A DNA stretch of 32,676 bases from Promethearchaeota archaeon (GTDB taxonomy: Archaea > Asgardarchaeota > Lokiarchaeia > Sigyniarchaeales > SOKP01), in the NCBI GenBank assembly GCA_016840545.1, contig JAEOSD010000012.1, positions 1 to 32,676 of the forward strand, given 5' to 3'. A program made the translations under genes and the position numbers. Below, one piece after another: positions 12,131-19,964 of the stretch (within the stretch, counting starts at the first letter, position 1; the number at the start of each line of letters is the position of its first letter). The notes beneath the pieces were generated by a model. That model saw nothing but the letters and a program-made list of their open reading frames with translations, made no database searches and was not told the origin of the DNA.

Positions 12131-13234
12131 TTAATATTTTGAAGGAGTTTTAGATTTGATTTTATATTTTGGTATCTCTTGAACTTTTTTCAATTCTTTC
12201 TCAAAATCTCTTTTTTCTCTAAGGAACCTCTCTTTATCTTTTTCTAATTTTTCTCTTTCTCTTCTAATAGCATTTTTTTCAGTGTCTATCATCGACTTTT
12301 CTTTTACTAACTGCTTATAATCATTATTTAATCTTTTTTGTTTATCTTCCAAATCACGAATCTTGCGTTCTAATGAATAAAAAGTATCTTCCGCTTTAGG
12401 AACTTTCCTATTTAGCTCTTTTAATCTTGTTTCTTGTTGTTGTTTCTTTTTTTCCAAATTTCTTACATCATTTTCAATTTTATCTCTGAAGTTTTCCAAA
12501 TCTTCTTTTTTTTTATCAATTTCACGAGCTTTAAGATTTAGATCTTTTTTTTTAATACGATTTTTTTCTTTTTCATCTTTTAATTTTCTTTTTTCATCAT
12601 CAATCCGGTTTTTTTCATCAAAAATGTTTTTTCTTAGATCATTGATTTCTTTATTTAAATTATCCCTTTCTTTTGAAAGATGTTTGATTTCATTTCTCAA
12701 CTCCATTAATTCATTTTCTAATTTTTCAATTGTTCTCTCTAATGCATTTTCTCTTCTTTCCATTCCAGGTATTTTAGTTTTAATCTCTTTAACACGAACT
12801 TCTGCTCTTGTTTTTTCTCTTTCTAAATATTTTTTCTCACTTTCTAAAGCGTCTTTTAGTCTATCTAACTTTTCTTGATATTTATCTAGGTCGGCATTTT
12901 TTTGATCTAACTCTCTTTCTTTTAAACTTAGATTATTTCTATGTTGCTTTATTCCATTTTTCATTCTTTCTAATTCACTTTTTAACTTTTCACGTTGGTT
13001 TAGAAGATTTTTGACTTCAAGTTCTTTCTCTTTTCTCTTTTTTTCAAGTTCTTTTATATTATCTTGATATCCTTCAAGTTTTTTAATAACCTTTTCCCAA
13101 TCGCTTTTCTCTCTGTTTAACTTTATCCTTTCTTCCTTTATCTTTTTAAGTAGTCTTGTATCTTGAATCATTTCGATTTCTTCTTCTGGTGTTTTCTCTC
13201 GAATTTGATACTTAGGAATTGGTTTATCATTCAT
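12131..13234 (-). CDS. Long coiled-coil protein with duplicated core and KTP termini
   Basis: A 367-residue protein that is almost entirely charged heptad repeat (E/K/R/L) from about residue 20 to 350, with no membrane segment and no ATPase head, so it is not an SMC protein. Residues 101-123 resemble 231-253, and 148-183 resemble 271-306. The offsets are 130 and 123, that is, they differ by exactly one heptad, which indicates an internal duplication with the register kept. The two ends carry near-identical peptides: 'IPKYQIREKTP' (residues 6-16) and 'IPKYKIKSKTP' (354-364). The gene is divergent from ubiquitin-like 1 across 204 bases and leads the operon that continues with the nucleotidyltransferase. 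A structural or scaffolding role is inferred; no homolog is named. Confidence 0.82.
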   Translation of the reverse strand: MNDKPIPKYQIREKTPEEEIEMIQDTRLLKKIKEERIKLNREKSDWEKVIKKLEGYQDNIKELEKKRKEKELEVKNLLNQREKLKSELERMKNGIKQHRNNLSLKERELDQKNADLDKYQEKLDRLKDALESEKKYLEREKTRAEVRVKEIKTKIPGMERRENALERTIEKLENELMELRNEIKHLSKERDNLNKEINDLRKNIFDEKNRIDDEKRKLKDEKEKNRIKKKDLNLKAREIDKKKEDLENFRDKIENDVRNLEKKKQQQETRLKELNRKVPKAEDTFYSLERKIRDLEDKQKRLNNDYKQLVKEKSMIDTEKNAIRREREKLEKDKERFLREKRDFEKELKKVQEIPKYKIKSKTPSKY

Positions 13235-13438: not shown

Positions 13439-13852
13439 ATGGAGTTTGATGAAGAATTTGATGATGAATTTGATGATGAATTTGATGAAGAACTTGATGA
13501 TGAATTTGATGAAGAACTTGATGAAGAATTAGAAGAACCTTCTGCAAAAACTCCAGCGGAAGAGGTTAAGACTAAAACTCCAACAATTAAAGCTGTTCCG
13601 GCAGGAAAAAAGATTTCAGTTTATTTTATGTCAACAATAGGTCCTGGTGAAAAAAAGCAAAAATTGCTCATAAACACAGGAAACAGTGTTGGGGATATAA
13701 AAGAGACTGTTGCGAATTTATTTGGTTTAGATCCTGCTGATTTTCATTTATCTTCAGGTGGAATTACCATGGATGAGAGTTCAAATGTAAGTGAATATAA
13801 TGTGAATGATGGAGAAGATATACTATTAATTCCAGCAAGTACTGCTGGTTAA
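13439..13852 (+). CDS. Ubiquitin-like modifier 1 with acidic N-terminal repeat
   Basis: A 137-residue protein. Residues 2-33 are eight tetrapeptides of the type E-F/L-D-D/E. A linker with two KTP motifs ('AKTPAEEVKTKTP') follows, then a ubiquitin fold from about residue 57: 'KKISVYFMS', 'GPGEKKQKL', a helix around 'VGDIKETVANLFGL', 'DFHLSSGG' and 'NVNDGEDILLIPASTAG'. The last strand and the exposed tail are those of a ubiquitin-family modifier, but the end is Ala-Gly and the stop codon follows at once: there is no Gly-Gly and no propeptide to remove. GGTG lies seven bases before the ATG. E1, E2 and protease genes follow downstream, so conjugation through the C-terminal glycine is likely. Identity as a modifier rather than a carrier protein is inferred from this context. 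Confidence 0.85.
   Translation: MEFDEEFDDEFDDEFDEELDDEFDEELDEELEEPSAKTPAEEVKTKTPTIKAVPAGKKISVYFMSTIGPGEKKQKLLINTGNSVGDIKETVANLFGLDPADFHLSSGGITMDESSNVSEYNVNDGEDILLIPASTAG
13442..13537 (+). repeat. Eight tandem 12-bp units coding an acidic tail
   Basis: Codons 2-33 of ubiquitin-like 1 are eight in-frame units of 12 bases (consensus GAATTTGATGAT with GAA/CTT variants). They give 32 residues with only E, D, F and L. Unit number can change in steps of four residues without shifting the frame. The equivalent region of ubiquitin-like 2 has only about two such units. Confidence 0.85.
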
Positions 13853-13869: not shown

Positions 13870-14679
13870 TTAGTTTTTCTTTTTTAAATTTTTTTCTTTT
13901 CTTGATGGAATCAGAGCAATTTCGTCATCATCATCAATAGCATAATCTTTTATTTGTGAGTTTTCGTGCAATAATATTCCTCCAGAGGATAAAAGAAAAT
14001 CTTCTAAAATATAGTCAAATAATGTTCCAATTCTTTCTTTAACACTAAATATTAATTCTGTTGTATCAATTATAATGATTTTTGTTTTTTCACCTGGCTC
14101 AACTAATGATCTTATATAAACTCGTATCTGGTCTTCCTTTTCAATAAAATTTGTAGGAGGTGTATAAATTATCCCCTCGTCAGTCTTATCCCTGTTTTTC
14201 AACATATTTTCGATTAATATTTTTCTCTCGTGTTTATCAAAATACAACATTTCTCTGATAAACATTATTTTATCCATTTTTGATAATTCTAAAAGATTTA
14301 TTTTTTCTAATTCTTCCTCATTAAACACAGAAAAAATATATTTATTCATTATTTCCATATTATCATATGATTCATTTGATTCAACATAATCTTCTATTGA
14401 AGGCATGGCATCAATATAATCCTCAATAAGATCAATAGGTTTATTTTTAATCGATTTGGGTTTTTTGACATATTTTTTCTCGCTTATCCTCTCATCTTCA
14501 CTGCTCGCAGATTGAATAATTGTATAGATAGTACTGGTGGATAGTACTGAAACACTACCGATAACTAGAAAGAGAAATAAAGGAATACTTTCTATACGGA
14601 ATAAGAAAAAAGCCATATAGATAATTATAAAAATAATGTAAAGAGTTATAGTACTTAAAACTCTATGCTTTTTCTTCAT
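13870..14679 (-). CDS. Membrane-anchored ubiquitin-fold protein without conjugation tail
   Basis: A 269-residue protein. Two hydrophobic helices (about residues 10-27 and 31-55) are followed by a charged region and, at residues 184-259, a ubiquitin fold clearly related to the two modifiers next door: 'VYIRSLVEPGEKTK', 'DFLLSSGG', 'ENSQIKDYAIDDDDEIALIPS'. Where the modifiers end in 'IPASTAG', this one continues with a lysine-rich tail ('RKEKNLKKKN') and no C-terminal glycine, so it cannot be activated by E1. It is convergent with ubiquitin-like 1 with 17 bases between stops. A 23-bp element shared with the ubiquitin-like 2 promoter lies about 60-80 bases upstream. It may hold E1, E2 or ubiquitin-binding proteins at the membrane; that role is inference, the domain architecture is seen. 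Confidence 0.82.
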   Translation of the reverse strand: MKKKHRVLSTITLYIIFIIIYMAFFLFRIESIPLFLFLVIGSVSVLSTSTIYTIIQSASSEDERISEKKYVKKPKSIKNKPIDLIEDYIDAMPSIEDYVESNESYDNMEIMNKYIFSVFNEEELEKINLLELSKMDKIMFIREMLYFDKHERKILIENMLKNRDKTDEGIIYTPPTNFIEKEDQIRVYIRSLVEPGEKTKIIIIDTTELIFSVKERIGTLFDYILEDFLLSSGGILLHENSQIKDYAIDDDDEIALIPSRKEKNLKKKN

Positions 14680-14737: not shown

Positions 14738-14760
14738 ATTGGAATGAATTTGAAGTTTTT
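14738..14760 (-). promoter_or_regulatory. Shared 23-bp promoter element, copy upstream of membrane ubiquitin-fold gene
   Basis: Read on the minus strand, the element contains ACTTCAAATTCATTCCAAT after five A residues. It is an exact 23-base match, in the same orientation relative to its gene, to 15599-15621 upstream of ubiquitin-like 2. It ends 59 bases before the ATG at 14679 and is followed by an AT-rich TATA-like stretch (TTTAAATTTTAAATTA). An exact 23-base match in two promoters is unlikely by chance even at this base composition. Confidence 0.7.
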
Positions 14761-14764
14761 ATTT

Positions 14765-15436
14765 TCATACACCTTGAATTGTTTTTTTAACTTTAGAATA
14801 TTTCTCTGTATCTAATTTGAATGTAATTCTTTTTTTTTCTTTTTCAATTTTTATTAATTTCAGTTTTTTTAAAATATATAAATATTTTTTAATTATATTA
14901 TGATTCTTTTTTAAGCTAGTTGCTATTTCTGTAATTTTTAGTGCTTTATCTTCCTTTTTCATAAAATTAATTATTTCTTGAATAATAGCCAAATTTAAAT
15001 AATAATAGAGCTCGTCAAGTTCTGGATTTGAATCGTATTTAAAAACAATTCTTCGATTGTTAATTTTTTTTGATCTAACAAATCGAAATTTTTCCAAACA
15101 GGATAGATGCCATAAAGCCTGATTACTTCCGATATTTAGAGCATTCATTATTTCATTAATATTTGACGGATTTTTCTTTATGTAATTAAAGATTTCATTC
15201 CTTAATGGATGTTCAATAATATTATTTTTCATTAATTTTGTTCCAGGAATTATTATTCTCTTTTTAATAAGATTTTTAATTGTGATTTCAATCTTAGCTT
15301 TGTTGATAAACGGATTTGATTTTACCCTATTGTTAATAAATACAACAATGTCTTCTATTGAAAAGAACGGTTTTTTTTCTAAATATTCTTTTACTAATTC
15401 AAGAACAATAGATTTGACATTATTCGTAGAGTTCAT
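14765..15436 (-). CDS. Tandem winged-helix transcription factor-like protein
   Basis: A 223-residue basic protein with two predicted winged helix-turn-helix modules. The first, about residues 72-120, contains 'NEIFNYIKKNPSNINEIMNA' followed by 'LNIGSNQALWHLSCLEKF', the layout of ArsR/MarR-like archaeal regulators. The second, about 150-215, contains 'ITEIATSLKKNHNIIKKYLY' with a 'KLIKIEKEKKRITFKL' wing. The N-terminal 60 residues ('SIEDIVVFINNRVKSNPFIN') could form a third helical module. No ligand domain is seen. It lies between the two copies of the 23-bp element and between the two ubiquitin-fold genes that carry it, which makes it the natural candidate regulator of both; binding has to be inferred. 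Confidence 0.78.
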   Translation of the reverse strand: MNSTNNVKSIVLELVKEYLEKKPFFSIEDIVVFINNRVKSNPFINKAKIEITIKNLIKKRIIIPGTKLMKNNIIEHPLRNEIFNYIKKNPSNINEIMNALNIGSNQALWHLSCLEKFRFVRSKKINNRRIVFKYDSNPELDELYYYLNLAIIQEIINFMKKEDKALKITEIATSLKKNHNIIKKYLYILKKLKLIKIEKEKKRITFKLDTEKYSKVKKTIQGV

Positions 15437-15598: not shown

Positions 15599-15621
15599 AA
15601 AAACTTCAAATTCATTCCAAT
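15599..15621 (+). promoter_or_regulatory. Shared 23-bp promoter element, copy upstream of ubiquitin-like 2
   Basis: Exact copy, on the plus strand, of the element at 14738-14760; together they form an inverted pair around the winged-helix gene. A TATA-like box, TTTTATAATAT, follows at 15625-15635, three bases after the element, so it occupies the BRE/activator position. A degenerate relative, TTCATTCAATTTATAATATA, occurs about 80 bases further upstream at about 15530-15549. Confidence 0.7.
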
Positions 15622-15704: not shown

Positions 15705-16031
15705 ATGAGTTTTGAAGAAAATTTTGATGAGGAATTAGAACCCGTTAAATCTAAAACACCATCTACTAAAACTCCTTCAGCAGGAAAGAAATTGACTTTA
15801 TATTTTACGTCAACCATTGGACCTGGTGAAAAGAAGGAAAAATTAACGGTAAATGATGCTAATCATGTAAGTGATATTAAGGAAACATTAGGAAATTTAT
15901 ATGGCCTTGATCCTAATGATTTTCATTTATCATCTGGTGGAGTTACGATGGATGAAAATAGTCAATTAAAAGATTATAATGTAAATGATGGCGACGATAT
16001 TCTTTTGATTCCTGCGAGTACTGCTGGGTAA
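15705..16031 (+). CDS. Ubiquitin-like modifier 2
   Basis: A 108-residue paralog of the modifier at 13439. A short acidic start ('SFEENFDEELEP') and a linker with two KTP motifs ('KSKTPSTKTPSAG') precede a ubiquitin fold from about residue 28. Signature pieces are 'GPGEKKEKL', 'DIKETLGNLYGL', 'DFHLSSGGVTMDENSQLKDY' and 'DDILLIPASTAG'. The C-terminal 12 residues agree with the first modifier, again ending in Ala-Gly at the stop codon. E1 follows after a U-tract hairpin, and the promoter carries the shared 23-bp element. The most likely role is the main conjugated modifier of this system. The paralogs differ mainly in the length of the acidic extension, which may set different localisation or partners. 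Confidence 0.87.
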   Translation: MSFEENFDEELEPVKSKTPSTKTPSAGKKLTLYFTSTIGPGEKKEKLTVNDANHVSDIKETLGNLYGLDPNDFHLSSGGVTMDENSQLKDYNVNDGDDILLIPASTAG

Positions 16032-16061: not shown

Positions 16062-16090
16062 ATGAAGGCATTAAGTCCTTCATTTTTTTT
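16062..16090 (+). terminator. Hairpin with U-tract between ubiquitin-like 2 and E1
   Basis: ATGAAGG (16062-16068) pairs perfectly with CCTTCAT (16077-16083) across an 8-base loop and is followed by eight T residues and further T-runs. It lies 30 bases after the ubiquitin-like 2 stop. It would end or attenuate transcription so that the modifier is made in excess over E1. Its left arm contains the ATG that would otherwise look like the E1 start. Confidence 0.6.
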
Positions 16091-16121
16091 ATTTTTTTTA
16101 TTATTATTAATGGTGATAATA

Positions 16122-17345
16122 TTGGATAAAGATTCAGATTTTTTTGCAAAAGCATTGTCAGTAAAAGAGAGAGATTTGTATGATCGCCAGTTTCGTCTCG
16201 AGGGCTGGTCCCAAAAATTAGTAAAAAACTCGAGAGTGTTAATTGTTGGTGTAGGAGGTTTAGGATGTGAAATTGCTAAAAATTTAGCCATGTTAGGGTT
16301 AGGCCAATTAGATCTTGTTGATTTAGATATCATTGAACATTCTAATTTGAATCGTCAAATTCTTTTCACAGATGCGAAGATAGGAGAACCTAAGGCAGTT
16401 GTTGCTGCTCGAAAACTAAAGGAAATTAACCCTAATATCATTGTTAAGGGATATCATACATCTCTAGAAAGATTAAATCCTGCATTATATCAAGCTGCTG
16501 AAGTTGTAATTGGGGGCCTTGATTCAATGAATGCGCGCTTGAACTTAAATGCTCAATGCATAAGATTTAGAAAACCACTCGTAGATGCAGGAGTATCAGG
16601 TTATCATGGTCATATTTACACTATCTTTCCGTATCAAAATGCTTGTTATGAGTGCAATCCATTACCAGTAAGCGAAAGTGATGAAATGGCAGCTTGTACA
16701 GTTGTTGGAGTCCCCAGAAAAAGGATTCATTGTGTTTTTAAAGGAGATATGGCATTTAAAGAAAAGTTTGATAGAGATCCAAATCCAAAAGATATAAATG
16801 ATATTAAGTTTATTCAAAAAGTTGCAAATGAATTGGTCAATAAACATAATTTCTTACCTGAATACACTAAAGATGATATCATAAAAATCATTGATAGGCA
16901 TGATCCTGGAATAATTACCATAAATGCAGTTATTTCTGCTTTACAATCACATGAGGTAGTAAAAATTCTTCATTGGAAAAAAGGTCATAAAGGATTAGGA
17001 GAACCTATTAAAAATTATGTGATTTTTAATGCCATGACGATGAAATTATACCATATTGAAAAACCGAGAAATCCAGAATGTTCTCAATGTGGTAAATCTG
17101 TTAGAAGAGTAGCTATAAAAATGAGATCTCAATCGCCATGTATAAATATAATTAAGACATTAAAGAAAAACGGATTTGAAGAGGAGCCTGATTTTGAACC
17201 TGTGCTAACCTTATTGGATTTCAATGATATTAAAGTAATTGATTTAGAACAGAACACTATTGAAAATGGTTTAAGAAATTACGAATTTATTACAGTTGCA
17301 GGGTTTAAGGGTGGAGAAATTTATGTAACCTTAAAATTAAAATGA
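16122..17345 (+). CDS. Ubiquitin-activating enzyme E1 (UBA3-like)
   Basis: Adenylates the modifier C-terminus and holds it as a thioester. The Rossmann ATP site 'IVGVGGLGCEIAKNLAMLGL' is followed by 'DLDIIEHSNLNRQILF' (nucleotide-binding Asp and the Asn/Arg/Gln motif). A CxxC pair ('CYEC') and a later 'CSQC' form the structural zinc site. 'ACTVVGVPRKRIHC' contains the catalytic cysteine (codon 16695-16697, residue 192 from this start), placed as in eukaryotic UBA3. The last 75 residues look like the ubiquitin-fold domain that recruits E2. Start: ATG 16062 lies in a terminator hairpin and would add a 20-residue hydrophobic stretch; TTG 16122 has GGTGAT at 16112-16117 and gives a normal E1 N-terminus. 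ATG 16110 is the other option. Architecture separates it from MoeB/ThiF. Confidence 0.93.
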   Translation: MDKDSDFFAKALSVKERDLYDRQFRLEGWSQKLVKNSRVLIVGVGGLGCEIAKNLAMLGLGQLDLVDLDIIEHSNLNRQILFTDAKIGEPKAVVAARKLKEINPNIIVKGYHTSLERLNPALYQAAEVVIGGLDSMNARLNLNAQCIRFRKPLVDAGVSGYHGHIYTIFPYQNACYECNPLPVSESDEMAACTVVGVPRKRIHCVFKGDMAFKEKFDRDPNPKDINDIKFIQKVANELVNKHNFLPEYTKDDIIKIIDRHDPGIITINAVISALQSHEVVKILHWKKGHKGLGEPIKNYVIFNAMTMKLYHIEKPRNPECSQCGKSVRRVAIKMRSQSPCINIIKTLKKNGFEEEPDFEPVLTLLDFNDIKVIDLEQNTIENGLRNYEFITVAGFKGGEIYVTLKLK

Positions 17346-17450: not shown

Positions 17451-17978
17451 ATGAGTATAAGAAGTAGTCGCGTTTCCCGCGATTTTGCTGGATTAAAAAA
17501 AATGCTTAAAGTTGGTACTATAGTTCAACTGAAACCATTTAATTCTAAAAAAAAGAGTATTGATCATTTAGCTATCACAATTAAAGGCCCTAAAGGTACT
17601 GTCTTTGCTGGGGGACTTTTTAAACTAGAAATGAGATTCCCTGCTCAGTATCCTAAGCAGCCTCCTTTTGTAAGAATGCATACTCCAATTTGGCATCCGA
17701 ATTTTTGGCCAAAACCAAGTGAATATAAAGGAAAGAGAAATATTTGTCTAGCATTAATAGATCCTTCCTTAATTGGTAAAAAGGGTGGATGGAGTCCTTC
17801 AAAAACTGCTGTTACAGTAGTTCAAGCAATAATTGCTATGTTAAATACCCGGGGTAAATATGTAAACCCAACAGATGTTTTTAATAAAAAAGCAGCAATA
17901 GAAATGATGAAAAATCCTAAATTTTTCGAGAAAAAAGTTAAAAATTTAGTGAAGAAGTACGCTAAGAACAAGTGGTGA
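17451..17978 (+). CDS. Ubiquitin-conjugating enzyme E2
   Basis: A 175-residue UBC-fold protein. The family signature is complete: 'FKLEMRFPAQYPKQPPFVRM' (strands 2-3 and the PxxPP turn), 'HPN' at residues 82-84, the acceptor cysteine in 'NICLAL' (C99), and 'WSPS' beginning at W114, followed by the long helix 'TAVTVVQAIIAML'. HPN to Cys is 15 residues and Cys to Trp is another 15, where common E2 enzymes have about 8 each; so loops of roughly seven residues are inserted on both sides of the active site. The basic N-terminus fits E1 docking. It takes the modifier from E1 and passes it to substrates with the RING protein. Seven bases separate it from the protease gene, so cotranslation is likely. 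Confidence 0.94.
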   Translation: MSIRSSRVSRDFAGLKKMLKVGTIVQLKPFNSKKKSIDHLAITIKGPKGTVFAGGLFKLEMRFPAQYPKQPPFVRMHTPIWHPNFWPKPSEYKGKRNICLALIDPSLIGKKGGWSPSKTAVTVVQAIIAMLNTRGKYVNPTDVFNKKAAIEMMKNPKFFEKKVKNLVKKYAKNKW

Positions 17979-17985
17979 AATCATT

Positions 17986-18789
17986 ATGGATATTGACGAG
18001 AAAAACAATTTAATCAAAGAAGCAATAAAGCAAAAAATTAAAGAGAAAATTAAAAAAGAATTGCTTGAAGAAATATATACCGAATTACAATTAGAAGAAG
18101 AATTAAGGGAAGAATTAACTTCCGAACTTCTTGAAACCCAGCCATTAGAGCATTCAGAAATAGTTAAAGCCAGACTTGAACCCATACCAATGGAACCAGT
18201 AATAACATATGCTAAAAATGACAAAGCAGAAGCAAAAATAGCTCTAACCGTAAAAGCTATCCTTAAGATCGCTAGTCATTCATTAAAATATGCTCATTCT
18301 AAAATTCGAAGAGAGGAATGGGTTGAAGTGATTGGATTGCTTGCTGGAAAATTTGATAATGCTAATGGAGTCCTTCATGTGGAAGATGCCTATCCAATGG
18401 GGCATGGTACAGCAGTGTATGCTGAAATTAAAGATTATAAAAATTACGTTAGAGCATTTAAAGACATAAAAAAGAATAGCCTTTTTATTTGTGGATGGTA
18501 TCATTCCCATCCTTCATATGGATGTTTCATGTCTAAAGAAGATTTAGGAACTCAAGCAAGATATCAAAAATTATGGGATAAAGCAATTGCGTTAGTTATA
18601 GATCCATACCAAATTGATGGCACTTCATTAGGATTTGAAATCTATCGTGCGAATTTTAAATCAAAGAAGTGGTTTTCAGTACCATTTGACGTTAAAGGAA
18701 ATTTAGATGTGAGAATGTTGCCAGAAATTTTAGAATTTATGAATCCAATTATTGAAGGTAAACCTGCTTATTTAGAATATGATGAATAA
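17986..18789 (+). CDS. Rpn11-like JAMM/MPN+ deubiquitinase
   Basis: A 267-residue zinc isopeptidase. The JAMM motif is intact: general base E114 ('EWVEVIGLLAGK') and zinc ligands H173, H175 and D186 with S183 in 'GWYHSHPSYGCFMSKEDLGT'. The sequence around it is close to proteasomal Rpn11 ('GWYHSHPGFGCWLS') and unlike bacterial RadC or archaeal Mov34 stand-alone forms. The first 60 residues are a charged helical stretch ('KQKIKEKIKKELLEE') likely to form a coiled coil for docking. The E2 gene lies 7 bases upstream, the RING gene 23 bases downstream. Since the modifiers here are encoded without a propeptide, its main task should be removal of conjugated modifier rather than maturation; this is inferred. 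Confidence 0.93.
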   Translation: MDIDEKNNLIKEAIKQKIKEKIKKELLEEIYTELQLEEELREELTSELLETQPLEHSEIVKARLEPIPMEPVITYAKNDKAEAKIALTVKAILKIASHSLKYAHSKIRREEWVEVIGLLAGKFDNANGVLHVEDAYPMGHGTAVYAEIKDYKNYVRAFKDIKKNSLFICGWYHSHPSYGCFMSKEDLGTQARYQKLWDKAIALVIDPYQIDGTSLGFEIYRANFKSKKWFSVPFDVKGNLDVRMLPEILEFMNPIIEGKPAYLEYDE

Positions 18790-18812: not shown

Positions 18813-19964
18813 ATGGTTAAAAAGAAGGTTTCAGTGATAATATTTGTCATTTTTCTGATAATTGGTATAATACATAGTTCTATCTCAATTTCTTTAAATA
18901 TTTTTTTAACCTGGATCTTTATTGGTTTATGGATAATTTTTACCGTTAAAATTTTTGAAAATATAAAACACTATCGCGAATTTAATTCACCACACAATAC
19001 TGCTTTTTTTGTAATTATTCCTTTATTTATCGGAATTTTTTACTCCATCTGGGGGTATTTTACAGGTATATTGGGTGAAAACCTTCTTGAAGGTTCAAAT
19101 CTATATTTTAGTTGGTGGAGTCTCATTTTTGGATTTCCATTTATATTATATGGTTCTTATTCTTTATATCGTTGTTTTAAGAAATATAATGTAATCTATT
19201 TTGGAACCAAGTCAGTAAAAGCTAGAACATTAGGATATATTTTAACTTCCACAGTTATTCTTTTTATAATAATTTATTGGGTGATGTTTTATACTATTAT
19301 AGAATTTTATGATTCTCCTATAACCCCTCTTCATTTCTCTTTAAATCTAAATCTTTTATTATTATTCATTGCATCGTTATTGATATTTATTATTTTTGGA
19401 TTAGCTAGTTCACATAGAACACTTCCAACATTAACTCGAGATTACATTGCTCAACGTACTAGAAGCATAAATTCATTAAGTACTCCTACAATTCAAAGGC
19501 AAAGGGTACGTACAACAACTAGAACTACTCCAACACCTTCAAGAAGAAATATAACTCAAACAACAAGATCTAGATCTCACTCATCTAGAACAACACCTAC
19601 TTCCCATAGGCAAAAAACTAGAACAACCAAAACTACTAGAACTAGAGCCGTAAAAACAACTTCAAAAGCTATAAATTTAAATAAATATAAACCAAGAGCA
19701 TCATATCTGTCAGAAGATGATTTTAAATGTATTTTTTGTTTTAAACTGCCAAAACTCCCCGATGATAATGGCAGGGGGATAATTGTATGTCCAAATTGTA
19801 GATATCCGGCTCATGCTGATGAATTTAAAGATTGGCTAAGAACCTCAAATCTCTGTTCAAGATGTAGTACTCCCATTCCATCCACATTTAAACGTAATCC
19901 TAGAATAATTAGTATAAAAAATTATCAAATTATCTATAGGCATTTTTTAAAGAAGAAAAGATAG
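18813..19964 (+). CDS. Membrane RING-type E3 ligase-like protein
   Basis: A 383-residue protein with three parts. Residues 1-200 hold about six hydrophobic helices (roughly 7-25, 28-48, 63-85, 100-120, 140-163, 178-198). Residues 201-287 are a Thr/Arg/Ser-rich disordered linker. Residues 303-352 form a RING-like zinc module: C306, C309, C326, C329, H334, C348 and C351, with 'FKDWL' before the last pair as in eukaryotic RING fingers. Only seven of eight canonical ligands are evident; D336 may serve as the eighth. GGTGA stands upstream of the ATG. As the third gene of the E2-protease operon it would tether E2 to the membrane and direct modification of membrane or nearby proteins. RING identity is strong from context, fair from sequence alone. 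Confidence 0.85.
   Translation: MVKKKVSVIIFVIFLIIGIIHSSISISLNIFLTWIFIGLWIIFTVKIFENIKHYREFNSPHNTAFFVIIPLFIGIFYSIWGYFTGILGENLLEGSNLYFSWWSLIFGFPFILYGSYSLYRCFKKYNVIYFGTKSVKARTLGYILTSTVILFIIIYWVMFYTIIEFYDSPITPLHFSLNLNLLLLFIASLLIFIIFGLASSHRTLPTLTRDYIAQRTRSINSLSTPTIQRQRVRTTTRTTPTPSRRNITQTTRSRSHSSRTTPTSHRQKTRTTKTTRTRAVKTTSKAINLNKYKPRASYLSEDDFKCIFCFKLPKLPDDNGRGIIVCPNCRYPAHADEFKDWLRTSNLCSRCSTPIPSTFKRNPRIISIKNYQIIYRHFLKKKR

Follow-up and report, generated by a model that had tools for sequence, protein, structure and literature searches.

Lokiarchaea are relatives of the ancestors of eukaryotes, and research treats the Asgard ubiquitin systems as forerunners of the eukaryotic one. Non-conjugable integral ubiquitin-like (Ubl) domains are central to eukaryotic ubiquitin biology, and Herp is one of the eukaryotic integral membrane proteins with a Ubl domain. 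TMUB1/HOPS is another such protein (PMC2474703, PMC11116810). A Caldiarchaeum/Asgard ubiquitin operon encoding E1, E2, RING and Rpn11 has been described in a paper in which we found neither a membrane Ubl protein nor a dedicated regulator mentioned (PMC5654768). As for regulation from the membrane, a membrane protein of Bacillus subtilis, SdpI, sequesters the co-transcribed ArsR-type autorepressor SdpR (PMC1626106), and membrane-bound one-component regulators are known in archaea as ArnR (PMC6396743) and TTRs (PMC10269533).

The stretch of DNA analysed here (the window, 32,676 nucleotides from a Promethearchaeota archaeon) contains a locus which resembles the Caldiarchaeum/Asgard operon in that modifiers and E1-like, E2-like, JAMM and RING-like proteins are encoded side by side. 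The modifiers of the window, however, end in TAG and not in GG. The features relevant to this work are as follows:

13439..13852, plus strand: Ubl1, modifier ending in IPASTAG (ORF, Pfam)
13870-14679, minus strand: TM-tail-Ubl, 269 aa, ATG start (ORF call, orthologs, purifying selection)
14515..14661, minus strand: two-helix membrane hairpin of TM-tail-Ubl, about residues 7-27 and 31-55 (hydropathy in 32 orthologs; model)
14191..14433, minus strand: helical tail domain, residues 83-163, common to surface receptors (profile A2; model)
13906..14130, minus strand: ubiquitin-like beta-grasp domain, residues 184-258 (model, PDB matches, homology to Ubl1/Ubl2)
13873..13905, minus strand: basic C-terminal tail SRKEKNLKKKN replacing ASTAG (ortholog termini)
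14738..14755, minus strand: promoter element CTTCAAATTCATTCCAAT ahead of TM-tail-Ubl (exact second copy; inverted repeat in orthologs)
14765..15436, minus strand: tandem winged-helix ArsR-like partner, 223 aa, 85 bp upstream of TM-tail-Ubl (Pfam, model, synteny)
15604..15621, plus strand: promoter element CTTCAAATTCATTCCAAT ahead of Ubl2-E1-E2-JAMM (conserved block; exact-match scan)
15705..16031, plus strand: Ubl2, modifier ending in IPASTAG (ORF, Pfam)
16062..17345, plus strand: E1-like protein, ThiF (Pfam 4.5e-60)
17451..17978, plus strand: E2-like protein, UQ_con (Pfam 1.2e-25)
17986..18789, plus strand: JAMM protease, JAB (Pfam 2.8e-15)
18813..19964, plus strand: membrane protein with a C-terminal RING-like cysteine pattern (sequence; sub-threshold RING matches, E 0.12)

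The number of residues past the terminal glycine of the modifiers ranges from none in the window (13852, 16031) to about five across species (orthologs L003-L023), and the need for maturation by the JAMM protease therefore varies. A third modifier gene, Ubl3, is unlinked to the cluster (L040-L044, L026, L143), and its product ends in STAGIF/IL/CF/II. Adjoining Ubl1 is a coiled-coil gene (12131-13234, minus strand), which is conserved beside ubiquitin clusters across families and whose product has KTP motifs at its ends, similar to those repeated in the modifiers' N-terminal tails. Elsewhere in the order, in a different family, large vWA-like proteins encoded next to the ubiquitin cluster (L036:11119-12849, L037:2225-3964, L038:5424-7121) end in a modifier-type Ubl with one to eight residues past TAG and are possibly cleavable vWA-ubiquitin fusions. 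The RING-like protein (18813-19964), which the first-pass annotation placed at the membrane, has membrane helices in the window; its counterpart in genome G048 (L075:6134-6802), encoded beside the pair and with a long Arg/Thr-rich N-terminal part, has no evident helices and seems soluble, and the link to the membrane is thus not conserved.

We propose that TM-tail-Ubl and the winged-helix protein encoded upstream of it form a membrane-tethered regulatory pair, which would derive from a Lokiarchaeal cassette consisting of a surface receptor and an ArsR-like regulator. The ectodomain of the ancestral receptor would have been lost and a cytoplasmic Ubl domain added as a new input, and the tail domain would dock or capture the winged-helix protein at the membrane. 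The Ubl domain, as a non-conjugable mimic, may bind the proteins that bind the modifiers (E1, E2, JAMM or a reader) and would itself not be consumed. The winged-helix protein would bind the CTTCAAAATCATTCCAATGG element beside the TATA-like boxes of TM-tail-Ubl and Ubl2-E1-E2-JAMM, and occupancy of the Ubl domain would alter free winged-helix protein and thereby provide feedback control of ubiquitin-system genes. As a whole, a membrane regulatory pair which senses the ubiquitin machinery and regulates the genes encoding it is in our judgement a nearly even call. A transcriptional feedback circuit in which the mimic would be the ligand-binding domain of a receptor and its partner an ArsR-like protein governing a regulon of ubiquitin genes (TM-Ubl, Ubl2-E1-E2-JAMM and the unlinked modifiers) is a tentative reading, which we consider somewhat more probably wrong than right.

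Two N-terminal membrane helices, already noticed in the first-pass annotation, were found by hydropathy in the 32 orthologs, the first segment being strong and the second weaker. Both segments have Lys/Arg on either side, indicating an N-in/C-in hairpin, and the AlphaFold2 model places the N-terminal helices at residues 2-26 and 32-43. All orthologs have this two-helix hairpin only and are without a large ectodomain. N-terminal matches to DUF2614/PRK02935 were set aside because they were below the cut-off and covered the membrane hairpin only. The dN/dS values of close ortholog pairs were 0.16-0.42, and TM-tail-Ubl is therefore under purifying selection.

A search in the window's own genome matched the Ubl region to Ubl2 (36% identity over ~96 residues, E 5e-15) and to Ubl1 (35% identity, E 1.5e-13), and with such E values the resemblance is not due to chance. 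Pfam ubiquitin matches TM-tail-Ubl weakly (E 0.0014, under the curated cut-off), the values for the two modifiers being 4.6e-5 and 9e-7. No PDB sequence was matched by profile A1 at E 0.01, so that no solved relatives were found by sequence. The AlphaFold2 model based on 18 orthologs has a beta-grasp at residues 184-258 with pLDDT 81-87. Its best PDB match in Foldseek is the Caldiarchaeum ubiquitin bound to Rpn11 (6fno_D, E 8.5e-7); many PDB ubiquitins match it with TM 0.84-0.92, and the Ubl of Dsk2 is among the fold matches. Both the C-terminal ubiquitin fold, which had been claimed for residues 184-259, and the paralogy with the modifiers were thus borne out. The motifs which had been reported as shared with the modifiers are related but not identical, as the modifiers read GPGEK and HLSSGG instead of EPGEK and LLSSGG. 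Similarly, the motif ENSQIKDY, ascribed to both modifiers, has a counterpart in Ubl2 only (ENSQLKDY), whereas Ubl1 reads ESSNVSEY.

The terminus of the window protein, ...LIPSRKEKNLKKKN, aligns with ...LIPASTAG of the modifiers, and the lysine-rich tail SRKEKNLKKKN was correctly recognized as replacing their conjugable end. Most orthologs end in ...LIPSRKK or similar, short of the Gly76 position. The numbering of Gly76 and of positions 8, 68 and 72-76 follows human ubiquitin; the TM-tail-Ubl chain ends or becomes basic at positions 72-76. Glycine occupies neither the terminus nor the Gly76 position in any of the 32 distinct orthologs; one has a glycine beyond this position, in an extended tail. 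TM-tail-Ubl therefore has the beta-grasp fold of a conjugable ubiquitin-like modifier and lacks its exposed or exposable C-terminal glycine. Given established E1 chemistry, activation of a protein with this terminus by E1 along the known route is predicted to be impossible. The region of the recognition face is largely common to the mimic and the modifiers (PGEK loop, FxLSxGG, DY, D.I.LIP). Positions 8 and 68 of this face, however, are consistently unlike those of the modifiers, and it is therefore not assured that the partners are common; the set of partners may be narrower.

Using the 18-ortholog profile, TM-tail-Ubl was found in 40 of the order's 79 genomes; these 40 belong to four genera within a single family. 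Orthologs of the same architecture thus do exist, with an exposed C-terminal glycine in none of the 32 distinct ones. All the named matches come from Lokiarchaeota MAGs, the nearest being 96% identical. Of the 40 carriers, 39 have E1; in G069, the only one without it, the contig breaks just beyond the winged-helix gene. Conversely, 23 E1-positive genomes gave no TM-tail-Ubl in the profile search, and three of these cases (G003, G005, G009) look like contig breaks and not like true absence. Both E1 and TM-tail-Ubl are missing from five genomes of genus g13, two of which are rated 100% complete. In the tree, the Ubl domains of TM-tail-Ubl form one clade apart from all modifiers (100/100, with a long branch and few columns), and Ubl3 derives from Ubl2. 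The Ubl fold devoid of a conjugable terminus and the presence of E1 in nearly all carriers count in favour of the regulatory pair.

The tail domain (residues 83-163), which is helical in the AlphaFold2 model, was recovered by profile A2 in 37 of 58 relatives; the window protein is in the seed alignment of this profile, and other tails were recovered by the window protein alone. Elsewhere, the tail is the cytoplasmic C-terminal end of Lokiarchaeal surface proteins, which range from about 400 to more than 1500 residues in length and have a membrane helix and repeat, FN3-like, PKD-like or parallel-beta-helix ectodomains (the last assigned by Pfam, the others by eye). We found no curated Pfam family covering the tail, and the best match of its profile to PDB sequences had E 0.29. 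The E2-binding region U7BR of Cue1 was considered and rejected as the identity of the tail, because it matched only 1 of 13 members (E 0.013), the window protein not being among them, and because the tail is also present in receptors with no tie to E2. Some tails follow not a membrane receptor but a Cys-rich zinc-finger-like module with the pattern C.VH.GP....C..C...YC..CA..L......CW.CG (L079:3770-4276, L035:2-4477).

The protein encoded at 14765-15436 scored 31.3 bits with Pfam HTH_5 (cut-off 22); it also matched NCBIfam HTH_metalloreg with E 1.7e-9, under the cut-off of that family. Its PDB sequence matches include archaeal regulators and putative DNA-binding proteins, and its model has pLDDT 91. 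From these sequence matches we infer that it is an ArsR-like putative DNA-binding regulator. The winged-helix gene lies directly upstream of TM-tail-Ubl on the same strand in all 32 named loci, one copy being frameshifted and two interrupted or cut in the assemblies; the incomplete copy in G075 was not accepted as a real loss, since the interruption falls within the gene in the assembly. Among tails outside the TM-Ubl loci, which were counted in 12 genomes, a homologous winged-helix gene was located within 4.5 kb of 41 out of 50, always on the same strand (about 2 expected). In four proteins of genome G049 (L101, L107, L108, L109), ectodomain, membrane helix, tail and winged helix are even fused. 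These fusions, with large beta-helix and PKD-like extracellular domains, are apparently one-piece transmembrane transcription regulators. The distance matrices of tails and winged helices are correlated (r 0.70-0.75; 0 of 5000 permutations), and the two therefore move as a cassette. The nearest cassettes not associated with ubiquitin genes are the same two for both halves (L031 and L078). The pair in the window has the tail and the adjacent same-strand tandem winged-helix gene of such a cassette but not its large ectodomain. The invariant pairing, the linkage and the fusions all speak for a regulatory pair.

The CTTCAAAATCATTCCAATGG element precedes TM-tail-Ubl, the Ubl2-E1-E2-JAMM operon and the unlinked third modifier gene. 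Both copies of CTTCAAATTCATTCCAAT in the window are at an identical offset to a TATA-like sequence, and the copy at 15604..15621 sits in the intergenic region common to the Ubl2 and winged-helix genes. The AAACTTCAAAATCATTCCAA block shows 97% identity over 20 columns among 26 Ubl2 promoters, compared with about 54% in neighbouring stretches, and ATTCCA-A-TGGAAT, a perfect inverted repeat, is present in many TM-Ubl promoters. A search of 8 genomes for TTCAAANTYATTCCAAT returned nine exact matches, all within the ubiquitin cluster. When one mismatch was allowed, 14 of the 32 matches were at ubiquitin genes and the reversed control gave 19 matches, so that the excess corresponds to the ubiquitin genes. 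A general promoter role of the element was rejected because exact copies are confined to the ubiquitin cluster in these 8 genomes and most of the one-mismatch matches outside ubiquitin genes fall within ORFs. Two intergenic one-mismatch copies in G002 (L154:2290 and L155:2080), located before small ORFs (97 and 79 aa), are possible further regulon members or chance matches.

In G076 and G081, whose E1 operon is located about 100 kb from the pair or on a different contig, this operon still has the element; the unlinked Ubl3 gene has likewise kept it, and it is absent from the modifier-gene promoters of genera without the pair. Together with its conservation and its specificity for the ubiquitin cluster, this argues for the regulatory pair. 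That the element occurs almost nowhere but ahead of ubiquitin genes suggests a pair which monitors the ubiquitin machinery and determines how much of it is supplied. Other observations count against the regulatory pair. The element is absent from the Ubl1 promoter; it has diverged in genera g11 and g12, and the E1 operons of g11 have no recognisable copy even though the pair is present. The element of Ubl3 (at -77/-79; 86% identity to Ubl2 promoters compared with 39% and 54% in the flanks) represents retention and not an independent gain because Ubl3 derives from Ubl2. The divergence of positions 8 and 68 weighs in the same direction, as does the fact that tandem winged helices also build proteins that do not bind DNA, such as ESCRT-II and UFL1.

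This last point leads to the possibility that the winged-helix partner is an ESCRT-II- or UFL1-like scaffold, with the pair acting as a membrane ubiquitin/ESCRT assembly and the element belonging to another regulator. Chains of ESCRT-II (3cuq, 2zme) and of UFL1/DDRGK1 are indeed among the fold matches of the winged-helix model, and Asgard ubiquitin and ESCRT genes are linked (PMC9192718). We nevertheless find this most improbable: the profiles match ArsR-type and archaeal regulators and not ESCRT-II, no ESCRT-II family (Vps22/25/36) was matched in Pfam at E up to 1, and none was found among PDB sequences, the likeness being that of the general tandem winged-helix fold only. In addition, members of the winged-helix family adjoin, or are fused to, numerous surface receptors that have nothing to do with ubiquitin.

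According to another explanation, TM-tail-Ubl is a mere bait whose Ubl domain brings E1, E2, JAMM or a reader of ubiquitin close to the RING protein at the membrane, so that ubiquitylation is directed there; the winged-helix gene would be adjacent but serve another function. The ubiquitin fold, the recognition-face residues common with the modifiers, the membrane hairpin and the position of the locus next to E1, E2, JAMM and the membrane RING protein are all compatible with such a role. It would leave unexplained, however, the tail domain with its linkage and fusion to winged-helix proteins as well as the invariant winged-helix pairing; moreover, the RING protein of G048 is not membrane-bound as read from its sequence, and the pair stays together where the E1 operon has moved elsewhere. 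The middle domain and the winged-helix partner, both overlooked in the first-pass annotation, speak for a role in signalling and gene regulation and against a passive bait, which we regard as unlikely. Eukaryotic integral Ubl domains (Dsk2/Rad23, Herp) dock on the proteasome or p97, and the Ubl domain could likewise be a handle which docks on a proteasome- or Cdc48-type machine and so governs the turnover of the anchor and its bound regulator or their extraction from the membrane. Besides this precedent, the Dsk2 Ubl among the fold matches favours a handle, but a more specific connection is suggested by how strictly the protein is tied to ubiquitin genes and their promoters, and we judge a degradation handle decidedly improbable.

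If the regulatory pair is confirmed, Lokiarchaea would use a ubiquitin paralog to gauge the state of their ubiquitin machinery and would adapt its supply, and archaea would already have possessed non-conjugable integral Ubl domains. A concrete regulator, operator and regulon can be named, which makes the proposal testable in vitro without culturing the organism. The surface receptors of Lokiarchaea may, moreover, signal across the membrane through the tail/winged-helix cassette. No description of TM-tail-Ubl, the cassette or the element was found in the freely accessible, published Asgard ubiquitin/ESCRT papers searched, and the literature searched contained nothing on the control of Asgard ubiquitin systems.

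In comparison with known systems, TM-tail-Ubl is like the TMUB1/Herp type in combining membrane helices with a non-conjugated, and by its terminus non-conjugable, Ubl domain. We know of no eukaryotic counterpart of the tail domain or of the winged-helix partner. The gene order, an ArsR-type regulator followed by its membrane partner, is that of SdpR/SdpI, and our guess, by analogy, is that the winged-helix protein acts as a repressor captured at the membrane. The likeness to this system is limited, however: SdpI is polytopic and senses an extracellular peptide, whereas TM-tail-Ubl consists of a two-helix hairpin, tail and Ubl domain and is not SdpI-like in the libraries searched, and the winged-helix protein scored 38.5 bits with the SdpR family, under the cut-off of 100. 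With ArnR and the TTRs, the pair would share winged-helix regulation from the membrane in archaea, and the G049 fusions have the ArnR/TTR architecture; in contrast to those regulators, the anchor and the putative DNA-binding protein of the window come from two distinct genes, and a ubiquitin fold would serve as the input domain. Membrane Ubl proteins and membrane-captured ArsR regulators are thus already known, but there is a fair chance that their combination is a new kind of circuit, and it would be, to our knowledge, the first prokaryotic transcription switch with a ubiquitin fold as its sensor.
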